From Enterovibrio coralii (GTDB lineage Bacteria > Pseudomonadota > Gammaproteobacteria > Enterobacterales > Vibrionaceae): a DNA stretch of 64,000 bases. Within the stretch, counting starts at the first letter, position 1. The number at the start of each line of letters is the position of its first letter. The position numbers and the translations under genes are program-made. The notes beneath the pieces are model-generated. The model did not search any database. It had not been told where the DNA came from and worked only from the letters and a program-made list of their open reading frames with translations. Positions 665 through 59,169 of this stretch are shown here, piece by piece. The DNA lies in contig NZ_LNTY01000054.1 in assembly GCF_001559595.1 (NCBI RefSeq), positions 1 to 64,000 on the forward strand, written 5' to 3'.

Positions 665-1209
665 ATGAGCGAAGCTCCGAAAAAACGTTGGTATGTTGTT
701 CAGGCTTTCTCTGGCTTTGAAGGCCGAGTATCAAAGTCGCTGAAAGAACATATCAAGATGCACGAGATGGAAGACTACTTTGGTGAGGTACTGGTACCTA
801 CTGAGGAAGTCGTCGAAATGCGCGCCGGACAGCGCCGTAAAAGTGAACGTAAGTTCTTCCCAGGCTATGTACTGGTTCAGATGATCATGAACGATGAGTC
901 ATGGCACTTGGTTCGCAGCGTTCCACGTGTAATGGGCTTTATTGGCGGTACGCCAGATCGTCCAGCACCGATTTCTGACAAAGAAGCGGATGCAATCCTG
1001 AACCGTCTGGAGAAGGCGAGTGAATCACCAGTCATAAAACTGTTTATGAAGCAGGTGAAGTTGTTCGCGTTACTGAAGGCCCATTTGCGGACTTCAACGG
1101 TGTAGTAGAAGAAGTAGATTACGAGAAGAGCCGCGTGAAGGTTTCTGTATCTATTTTCGGTCGTGCTACACCAGTAGAGCTAGAGTTCGGTCAAGTAGAA
1201 AAAAGCTGA
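665..1209 (+). CDS. nusG: Transcription termination/antitermination factor NusG (one apparent frameshift)
   Basis: NusG binds RNA polymerase through its N-terminal NGN domain and links it to Rho or to ribosomal protein S10 through its C-terminal KOW domain. The NGN domain reads cleanly from [15 protein letters not shown] at 665. Near 1031, in the stretch coding for KASESP, one base is missing. From there the reading frame moves by one and gives the KOW domain ([20 protein letters not shown]) and the usual end [11 protein letters not shown], stopping at 1207-1209. With one base restored the protein is 181 residues, the normal family length. NusG is essential in most gammaproteobacteria, so the break is most likely a sequencing deletion rather than a mutation. 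Confidence 0.93.
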
Positions 1210-1230
1210 TCGTTTTTTGCTCGGAAATAG

Positions 1231-1259
1231 TTGCGAGGGGCGCGAAATTTGAATACAAT
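1231..1259 (+). promoter_or_regulatory. Probable P-L11 sigma-70 promoter for rplK-rplA
   Basis: TTGCGA (1231-1236), a 17-base spacer, then TACAAT (1254-1259). This is close to consensus and sits where the L11 promoter lies in Escherichia coli. Its -10 box lies inside the inverted repeat described at 1238-1272. Confidence 0.75.
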
Positions 1260-1272
1260 TTCGCGCCCTTTT
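1238..1272 (+). terminator. Terminator-like hairpin between nusG and rplK
   Basis: GGGCGCGAAATT (1238-1249) and AATTTCGCGCCC (1257-1268) form a perfect 12-bp stem with a 7-base loop, followed by TTTT. Only RNA reading through from secE-nusG contains both arms. Transcripts from the overlapping L11 promoter start downstream of the left arm. Confidence 0.7.
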
Positions 1273-1333
1273 GTTAAACGGGGAGTCTGTTCTCATAAGA
1301 CAGACGTTTGAACCCAAATTTAGGTATTTAGTA

Positions 1334-1762
1334 ATGGCTAAAAAAGTAGAAGCTTACATCAAGCTGCAAGTTGCAGCTGGTATGGCTAACCCAAGTCCAC
1401 CAGTTGGTCCAGCTCTGGGTCAGCACGGCGTGAACATCATGGAATTCTGTAAAGCGTTCAACGCACGTACAGAATCTCTAGAGAAAGGCCTGCCAACTCC
1501 AGTAGTTATCTCTGTATACGGCGACCGTTCTTTCACTTTCGAACTGAAGACTCCACCTGCAGCAGTTCTGCTGAAGAAAGCAGCTGGTATCAAGTCTGGT
1601 TCAGGCCGTCCTAACACTGAGAAAGTTGGTACTGTTACCGACGCTCAGATCCAGGAAATCGCGGAAACTAAAGCGAAAGACATGACTGGTGCTGACATTG
1701 AAGCGATGAAACGCTCAATCGCTGGTACCGCTCGTTCAATGGGTCTGGTAGTAGAGGGTTAA
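1334..1762 (+). CDS. rplK: 50S ribosomal protein L11
   Basis: L11 forms the GTPase-associated centre of the large subunit together with 23S rRNA and the L10/L12 stalk. The 142-residue product starts [20 protein letters not shown] and has the L11 signature [17 protein letters not shown] in the N-terminal domain and an RNA-binding C-terminal domain (about residues 70-142). The ATG at 1334 was chosen from this conserved start; an upstream in-frame extension has no family match. rplA follows after 4 bases. L11 is the substrate of PrmA, encoded at 34030-34914. Intact. Confidence 0.97.
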
Positions 1763-1766
1763 GACA

Positions 1767-56588: not shown

Positions 56589-56795
56589 GGAATACTCCTG
56601 TTAAAGCTAAAAATCAAAAAGAACAAACGGAGCCACTGTCTTCGAGGTCAAACGGCCTTTATCACCATAGTGTTGGTGTGGATTTTAGAGCGCAAAAACG
56701 TCGAAATAAGTCTCTTCGTTTGGACTTTCGGAATTAGGGATGCGATATCAAAAAAGCGCGCGTAATGTAACACGGATTGAGTGTTGCACAGGGGT

Positions 56796-56825
56796 AAAAA
56801 AAATGGGTACTCGTTGAGTACCCAT
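56796..56825 (-). terminator. Terminator of aspA
   Basis: ATGGGTACTC (56803-56812) and GAGTACCCAT (56816-56825) form a 10-bp stem; the A run before it gives the T tail on the minus strand. Confidence 0.92.
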
Positions 56826-56836
56826 CTTGTTTCGAA

Positions 56837-58297
56837 TTAGTTGTAGCGTTTTGCTTTGTACTGCGGGTGCATCAGGTTATCAATCGAGAAGATGTCATCC
56901 AGTTGCTCTTCGGTCAGCAGACCGCGCTCCAGCACAACGTCGCGTACGTTCTTGCCTGTTTCCGCACAGATCTTACCAACGATGTCACCTTCGTGGTGGC
57001 CGATGAACGGGTTCAAGTAGGTCACGATACCGATTGAGTTGAAAACAAAGGCTTCACAGATTTCTTTGTTCACAGTGATGCCGTTTACACACTTCTCACC
57101 CAGGTTCACACATGCGTTTGCTAGGATGTCGATAGATTCGAACAGCGCTTGGCCAATCACAGGTTCCATCACGTTCAGCTGAAGCTGACCCGCTTCTGCT
57201 GCGAAGGTTACCGTGGTGTCGTTGCCGATAACTTTAAAGCAAACTTGGTTAACCACTTCTGGGATAACTGGGTTTACTTTCGCTGGCATGATTGAAGAGC
57301 CCGCCTGCATTTCTGGCAGGTTGATTTCGTTAAAGCCCGCGCGAGGACCAGAAGACAGCAGGCGCAAGTCGTTACAGATCTTCGACAGTTTTACTGCCAG
57401 ACGCTTCAGTGCGCCGTGAACCATTACGTACGCACCACAGTCAGAGGTCGCTTCAATCAGGTCTTCTGCCGGGGTACAGTTCAGGCCAGTCACTTCCGCC
57501 AGACGCTCAACCGCCAGTTGTTGGTAGCCAGCTGCTGCGTTCAGGCCTGTACCGATTGCGGTTGCGCCCAGGTTCACTTCCAGCAAAAGCTCTGCAGTGT
57601 ATTTCAGGTTCTTCACTTCTTCTTTCAGAAGCACAGCGAAGGCATTGAATTCTTGACCCACAGTCATAGGTACTGCGTCTTGAAGCTGGGTACGGCCCAT
57701 TTTCAGGATGCCACCGAACTCGGTGCCTTTTGCTGCGAACTCACCTTGTAGGTAAGTGATTGAGTCAACCAGCTTCAGAATGCTGTTGTATACCGCGATA
57801 CGGAAACCTGTTGGGTAAGCACAGTTGGTTGATTGGCTCTTGTTCACATGGTCGTTAGGGTTAACCACGTCGTAATCGCCTTTTTCTTTGCCCATCAGTT
57901 CCAGAGCAAGGTTCGCAATCACTTCGTTCGCGTTCATGTTTACAGAGGTGCCTGCGCCGCCTTGGTAAACATCAGAAGGGAACTGATCCATGCACTTGCC
58001 TGTTTCCAGAATCAAATCACAGGCTTTGATGATGTAGTCGCCCACATCAGCAGGGATAACGCCCAGCTCTTTGTTCGCCATTGCCGCAGCTTTCTTGGTG
58101 AACACCATGCCGCGTACAAACTCAGGCACATCAGAAATAGTGGTCTTAGAAATATTGAAGTTTTCAACAGCGCGAAGAGTATGAATGCCGTAATACGCAT
58201 CAGCCGGTACATGGCGTTCGCCAAGTAGGTCTTCTTCGATGCGAGTTGCAATTTGAGGGGTTGTCAGATTTTGTTCGAAATCAATCGTTTGTGACAT
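56837..58297 (-). CDS. aspA: Aspartate ammonia-lyase
   Basis: AspA deaminates aspartate to fumarate and ammonia. The 486-residue product belongs to the fumarase/aspartase superfamily: [20 protein letters not shown] near residue 100, HVNKSQSTN near 145, and the signature loop [15 protein letters not shown] near residue 325. The start has the family stretch [19 protein letters not shown]. The aspA-dcuA-dsbD order is conserved in vibrios and enterobacteria. Intact. Confidence 0.97.
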
Positions 58298-58663
58298 GAT
58301 ATGGCCCTAAAAGAATTTTATATTGGTTATTCTGTTAGCCAACAAATTCGCTGTAGAGTCCATTCATTCAGAGAGTTTGGCCTGGGTATCCAGTTTTTTG
58401 TACCCGACGTATTGCAGGCAATTTTACTCGTACGTTACAGCAAAAACATGAGTGAGATCACCAATTGAGATTAAGAACCACGATTTGAATGGTTCTGTGA
58501 TCACGATCTTCATCTCAATGATTCGGCTCACGCATTGTTAACTGTCTAATAATATTCATACACTTATCTTGTCACGCCGTGACACATCTTCACACTAATC
58601 ACCCCTCAATCATTTCTCCATCCAGTGGTATGATGGGTTAGAAGATTAAAAGAGGTCCTTGCT
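58298..58663. promoter_or_regulatory. Divergent aspA/fxsA region with a nested inverted repeat
   Basis: No gene is seen in this stretch. ATTGAGAT (58464-58471) is inverted at 58512-58519. Within it AGAACCA (58474-58480) is inverted as TGGTTCT (58490-58496). A GTGATCAC palindrome lies inside. The nested dyads could be a regulator site or a small stem-loop RNA; no full CRP or FNR site is evident. Confidence 0.45.
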
Positions 58664-59169
58664 GTGTTTCCTATTCTGCTCCTGATGTTCATTACGGTTC
58701 CTGTCATTGAAATCGCCCTGTTTATTCAAGTGGGTGGTGTGCTGGGACTTTGGCCGACCGTGGCGTTGATTTTGCTGACCGCGGTAGTGGGAGCGTCGTT
58801 GGTGCGAAGCCAAGGCCTTCAAACTCTGCTGACGGTGCAACAGCGTTTGCACCAAGGCGAATTGCCGGCACAACAAATCATTGAAGGTGTGATGTTGGCC
58901 GTTGCGGGTGTGCTGCTGCTTACACCAGGGTTTATGACTGATGCCATGGGTATGGCGGTGCTTTTACCATGGCGCGTGCGTGGCTGGCAAAGCAGTTGAT
59001 GAGCAAAGTGAAGGTGGCAAACTTCCAAAGTGGCTTCCAACAACAAGGCCCGTTTGGCAACGACCCGTTCAACCAGCAAGGTCCGTTTCGTGACAACTCA
59101 CAAGGCGGTAACACCTTCGAAGGTGAATACGAGCGCAAGAACGACGATGACAACCACCGTCTGCGCTAA
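58664..59169 (+). CDS. fxsA: FxsA family membrane protein (one apparent frameshift)
   Basis: FxsA is an inner-membrane protein known for suppressing F-plasmid exclusion of phage T7. The product starts with GTG 58664 (AGAGG 8 bases upstream) as MFPILLLMFITVPVIEIALF. It has three to four membrane segments, with GGVLGLWPTVALILLTAVVG and LLLTPGFMTDAMG. One base is missing near 58965, after which the frame gives ARAWLAKQLMSKVKVANFQS and a glutamine-, asparagine- and glycine-rich tail. Restored length is about 168 residues. The position beside aspA is conserved. Confidence 0.88.

Follow-up and report, generated by a model that had tools for sequence, protein, structure and literature searches.

Thirteen genes in a 64,000-nucleotide stretch of the Enterovibrio coralii genome (the window), among them nusG, rplJ, and rpoB, cannot be read through in a single frame. 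The question raised by this locus is whether these genes are broken in the organism or only in its assembled sequence. Comparison with colinear contigs of the same genus indicates that the organism itself almost certainly carries them intact and that the losses are an artefact of some sequencing platform.

The contig and its relatives

The window opens a contig of 74,001 bases, of which it covers positions 1 to 64,000; the assembly amounts to 5.5 Mb in 72 contigs, with an estimated completeness of 100% and contamination of 5.45%. We examined 15 genomes of the genus, whose sizes lie between 2.1 and 5.7 Mb: ten measure 5.2 to 5.7 Mb, and two are as small as 2.1 and 2.6 Mb. Among the best 80 of 595 named loci the nearest RpoC belongs to Vibrio (86%), in a collection that may lack records of the genus itself. 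For comparison we used colinear contigs from eight relatives of the same genus, of which G002 is the nearest. On the colinear contigs 63 conserved gene families were defined, at most three reference proteins per family were drawn from seven relatives, and each reference protein was aligned with each contig using a frameshift-tolerant protein-to-DNA alignment.

The contig begins in the 3′ end of tuf (1..64, + strand; recognised by eye). The contigs of six of the eight relatives likewise begin in or beside tuf, no more than about 450 bases from the same point, and the remaining two extend past it. At the other end, the contigs of G007, G008, and G010 continue into what appears by eye to be the start of a 16S rRNA gene, and that of G004 continues to tRNAIle and tRNAAla, as in an rRNA operon (also by eye). 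The contig under study seems to stop just before such an operon.

Reading frames are lost by deletion only

Frameshift-tolerant alignment found the reading frame lost at 20 places in 13 genes, always by deletion and amounting to 21 bases. One base is missing at 19 of these places and two at the remaining one, in acs. Each loss appeared with every one of the three reference proteins for its gene, and the same alignments contained no insertion in the coding genes of the window. An earlier note on this DNA, made from its letters, had counted about 20 losses in 13 genes, deletions only and with a two-base loss at one spot of acs, and had asked for a tally of insertions against deletions; our independent search arrived at the same 20 places and at a tally of 0 to 20.

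In the order of the contig, the frame is lost once each in nusG (689..1203, +) at ~1.03 kb, rplJ (2708..3192, +) at ~3.09 kb, and rpoB (3852..7873, +) at ~7.2 kb. There follow the genes for a lipoyl and alpha/beta hydrolase protein (acoC-like; 13809..14908, −; one loss, ~14.09 kb), a dehydrogenase E1 component (acoA-like; 15933..16921, −; one loss, ~16.03 kb), a sigma-54 activator (acoR-like; 18251..20162, +; two losses, ~18.81 and ~19.93 kb), and a DUF416 protein (yjaG-like; 23390..23973, +; one loss, ~23.84 kb). purH, with its MGS and AICARFT/IMPCHase domains (27930..29526, −), is interrupted twice, at ~28.56 and ~28.96 kb, and acs, for acetate–CoA ligase (39669..41654, −), at two nearby places, ~40.44 and ~40.47 kb, which together lack three bases. 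The gene for a crbS-like hybrid kinase, whose symporter part is weakly matched (45839..49304, +), contains five frame losses in the interval from 46.05 to 48.2 kb. Single losses lie in the gene for an actP-like sodium/solute symporter of the VC_2705 family (50168..51891, −; ~51.25 kb), in dsbD (53289..55147, −; ~54.6 kb), and in fxsA (58664..59166, +; ~58.97 kb). The names acoC, acoA, acoR, yjaG, and crbS are putative.

Over the whole contig the pipeline recorded 23 single and one double deletion and one insertion-type event, with 21 of the deletions inside the window. This count joins two crbS places that are less than 40 nt apart, so that separating them gives 22; setting aside two doubtful events, at ~16.95 and ~29.57 kb, leaves the 20 reported here. 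The former lies near the C terminus of acoX, at about codon 344 of 352, where conservation is poor, and the latter is located upstream of purH and is visible only against longer start choices. Beyond the window, two further single-base frame losses occur at contig positions ~65.8 and ~70.4 kb, and a doubtful deletion (~71.3 kb) and an insertion (~71.5 kb), both near gene starts, were left out. In the acoX-like gene itself, which has an NAD-kinase domain (16914..18119), an extra frame loss near the poorly conserved C terminus is possible.

Twenty frame losses in about 50 kb, or roughly one per 2.4 kb of coding sequence, is far above the base rate in the genus. With the same pipeline, seven relatives together yielded two deletions and nine insertions as frame-changing events in 404.9 kb, and nine of these 11 events fall within the first 25 codons, where the choice of start varies. 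Seven of the nine colinear assemblies are thus nearly clean of frame changes. In-frame stops agreed on by two references numbered one in this contig, three in the relative G005, and zero to four in the seven others; the one counted here is a difference in start choice. In simulations on intact genes, 150 of 150 deletions were noticed (149 typed correctly), and 145 of 150 insertions were both noticed and typed correctly, the five missed all being near gene ends. Because the sensitivities are nearly equal, the pipeline is not blind to insertions.

A count of indels that ignores the reading frame gave, for the whole contig, 36 deletions and 22 insertions against G002 and 38 and 24 against G010. 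G005 against G010 gave 50 and 16. Among the controls, the deletions and insertions against G010 were 23 and 27 for G002, 7 and 4 for G007, 18 and 26 for G011, and 12 and 2 for G008, and G004 against G009 gave 6 and 8. The deletion bias is therefore weaker in the frame-blind count, in which the clean relative G008 is also skewed toward deletions (12 to 2), a doubtful point of this method.

Missing bases are chiefly G or C in short runs

Sequence context was examined over the whole contig, including the doubtful places and those outside the window. Enough relatives could be aligned at 22 of the 24 deletions here, of which 19 were resolved; the corresponding numbers for G005 are 47 of 49 and 46. 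At 15 of the 19 resolved places here, and at 31 of the 46 in G005, the lost base is G or C. Deletions within two or three identical bases make up 13 of 19 and 26 of 46, respectively, a preference given without correction for the habit of aligners of placing gaps inside runs. Both features coincide, i.e., a G or C is lost from a run of two or three, in 12 of 19 and 20 of 46 cases (with one G005 place entered twice), or 32 of 65 together, against an expected 19%. The relatives agreed by less than 70% on the lost base at five resolved places here and 16 in G005; at the better-agreed places it is G or C in 12 of 14 and 21 of 30. No run of four or more was hit by any of the 19 deletions resolved on the contig, which bears out the short-run context proposed in the earlier note.

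Longer runs were counted separately. Runs of five, six, and seven occur at 1.95, 0.57, and 0.07 per kb on this contig, compared with 2.30 to 2.74, 0.60 to 0.87, and 0.11 to 0.19 in the contigs of the eight relatives. Identical-base runs of five to seven are thus rarer than in the relatives, and runs of eight or more are commoner.

A second assembly of the genus is affected

The ninth colinear assembly, G005 (contig C26), is a same-genus genome of 5.3 Mb (87% complete, 5% contaminated) whose rpoBC region is about 93% identical to the window. It contains 46 single and three double deletions in 53.9 kb, one of them entered twice via overlapping gene families, as well as two insertion-type events near gene starts. 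Its density of about one frame loss per 1.1 kb is about twice that of the assembly studied here. At three places, the losses in rpoB and fxsA and the second of the two in acs, G005 lacks the base where the window does, and the base is present in all other aligned relatives (seven for rpoB, seven for acs, and six for fxsA). The protein aligner sets the G005 loss in acs 29 nt off, and DNA alignment brings it to the same place. If the losses fell evenly, about 0.1 shared places would be expected (P ~ 2e-4). Since many substitutions between the window and G005 surround the acs and fxsA losses, these were not inherited as one piece. In the genome of G005, mutS, mutL, valS, and dnaE are also in pieces.

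Essential genes are hit like any others

rpoB is present in the assembly in no other copy, which rejects the idea that an intact second rpoB elsewhere compensates for the broken one. nusG is in two pieces here, and in all 14 other genus genomes searched it forms one piece over the family cutoff; no second nusG over that cutoff was found in the assembly, which has only distant NusG-like proteins, as do the relatives. Elsewhere in the genome, valS (contig C55, ~234.8 to 237.6 kb) is interrupted twice and has no other copy over the cutoff; mutL (contig C55, ~5.9 to 7.8 kb) and a second DnaE-like gene (contig C25, ~264.9 to 267.5 kb) are each interrupted once. mutS and the main dnaE are whole, which counts against the artefact. 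Essential single-copy genes are broken as often as others.

Nor is selection visibly weaker on the broken genes. Relative to G002, the nonsynonymous and synonymous codon differences number 494 and 2,366 in 13 broken genes (a set that counts acoX as broken and leaves out nusG) and 615 and 3,073 in 32 intact ones; these are raw counts rather than normalised rates, and their ratios (0.209 versus 0.200) are not distinguishable (Mann-Whitney p 0.74). The parts behind the breaks, taken as a set, have 251 nonsynonymous and 1,327 synonymous differences. Conservation there is among the lowest in acoA (7 and 7) and in acoC (31 and 40), the latter showing this over its whole length.

The losses are scattered as gene length predicts: 32 of 45 genes are spared, and 29.8 would be expected from 21 events spread evenly by length. 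The earlier note had argued for under-calls from the indispensability of nusG, rplJ, and rpoB, and from the intactness of neighboring genes. The former argument is strengthened by the finding that rpoB and nusG are broken without a second copy over the cutoff; rplJ is broken too. The neighbors, rpoC (7990..12204, +) and the gene for a DUF294 nucleotidyltransferase protein (42527..44329, −), are indeed intact, but this fact carries little weight by itself, because at the present density rpoC would be spared with a probability of 0.17. The preference of that note for under-calls over gene decay agrees with the length-predicted scatter, the unrelaxed selection, and the three places common to G005.

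Decay, mutation, and recoding as explanations

The genes could be decaying in a genome undergoing reductive evolution. The genus includes reduced genomes of 2.1 and 2.6 Mb, the pseudogene-rich anglerfish symbionts of Enterovibrio described in PMC6020299 apparently belong to it, and the parts of acoC and acoA behind the breaks are rich in nonsynonymous differences. Those symbiont genomes, in the portion of that paper available, are about halved and filled with transposons, whereas the genome of the window has its full size of 5.5 Mb and breaks that each remove no more than two bases. Decay would leave more than frameshifts, namely stops, larger deletions, and relaxed selection; none of these was found, the sole in-frame stop on this contig being the difference in start choice. 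Selection is equal on the broken and intact gene sets, and rpoB and valS are among the genes broken. Moreover, the two smallest genomes, G003 and G012, keep rpoB, mutS, mutL, and nusG in one piece; dnaE of G012 is in two pieces on two contigs. The selection data and the kind of lesions lead us to reject gene decay, which we regard as highly improbable.

A strain defective in mismatch repair could instead have truly accumulated −1 frameshifts, as the split mutL and the scarcity of runs of five to seven might suggest. Mutators both lengthen and shorten long runs. Here, all 19 resolved deletions lie in runs of at most three, no altered long run is among them, the window has no insertion, and mutS is whole; a cell could not survive on a truncated sole rpoB. 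Run lengths, one-sidedness, and the breakage of essential genes thus all misfit, there is very little chance that a mutator is responsible, and mutL looks like one more victim of base loss. Programmed frameshifting or transcriptional slippage that rescues the frames has nothing in its favor beyond the frames themselves. The frames of the relatives are unbroken at these places, and the 20 places in 13 unrelated genes showed no common signal beyond the preference for G/C runs. To our knowledge, the contexts of the losses are also too short for the known slippage signals. Such a rescue is extremely improbable, and it is just as hard to credit that in two Enterovibrio-like species the cultured cells truly carry the deletions and recoding or slippage at short G/C runs restores the frames of many essential genes.

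Probable source of the missing bases

The sequencing artefact probably arose as follows. The assembly would have been built from short, indel-prone reads, and its consensus would drop single bases in particular contexts, for the most part where G or C stands two or three times in succession; when most reads over such a place under-call the base, the consensus would inherit the loss and the frame would break. Short reads are suggested by the contig edges, one of which lies within tuf and the other, it seems, just ahead of an rRNA operon. tuf is about 1.2 kb long, and long reads should span it. Since the start inside the gene implies reads shorter than about 1.2 kb, we consider a long-read origin unlikely.

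We infer, with some confidence, that the platform was Ion Torrent. In the available text of Bragg et al. (2013; PMC3623719), the Ion Torrent PGM produced about one high-frequency indel per 1,000 to 2,000 bp, including a strand-asymmetric class made up mostly of C and G deletions, 82% of them in runs of two to three, and PGM runs shared more indel sites than expected by chance. The losses described here resemble these indels in being single-base, in their spacing, in the overrepresentation of G/C losses from runs of two to three, and perhaps in the recurrence of some sites. They are unlike them in that the PGM, as reported there, often inserts bases, mainly A/T (nine of 15 data sets have more insertion than deletion sites), and just 29% of its high-frequency indels overall are in runs; insertions, which an Ion Torrent profile leads one to expect, number 0 against 20 deletions in the window. 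Listeria assemblies from Ion Torrent data had 77% deletions and 11.7% insertions with a mean run length of 5.5, and, according to the accessible part of that study, errors are not repeated from one independent sequencing to the next (PMC12046094); here the runs are short and three places are common to G005. According to the part of PMC7604302 available, more than half of the genomes that RefSeq excludes because many of their proteins are frameshifted come from Ion Torrent, and the present assembly shares with such genomes an excess of genes split by consensus indels. A literature search for Enterovibrio or Grimontia with Ion Torrent found no publication linking them, and the platform is accordingly deduced from the error profile.

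The source could also be Roche 454, or nanopore or PacBio reads assembled without polishing, though we would not call this probable. These three also leave indel frameshifts in bacterial assemblies. The absent insertions and the shared places, which differ from some Ion Torrent studies (PMC12046094 and PMC3623719, as far as their available text goes), would fit another platform, as would runs of five, six, and seven that are rarer than in any of the eight relatives and the commoner runs of eight or more. The contig start inside tuf argues against long reads, and 454 is disfavored by its about equal insertions and deletions (PMC3623719, in the text available) and by the lack of any run of four or more at the 19 resolved places.

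Consequences for the use of the assemblies

The frame losses are an ordinary sequencing artefact and say nothing about the biology of the organism. They do affect two species-level reference genomes of one genus, in both of which rpoB, valS, and mutL are split by false frameshifts. Such frameshifts would inflate pseudogene counts and distort comparisons with those symbionts of the genus whose genomes are truly reduced, and claims of gene loss or pseudogenes from this assembly or from G005 are not trustworthy without the reads. False frameshifts may also explain the raised contamination estimates of the two assemblies.

Near the end of the window, positions 59429..63349 encode a PTS EIIA, a PTS EIIC of the GAT family, and a two-part transketolase, with every frame open. 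Among the DNA matches listed for the contigs of the eight relatives, none exceeds 800 bases between ~59.2 and 64.6 kb. The PTS/transketolase stretch was perhaps gained in this genome.
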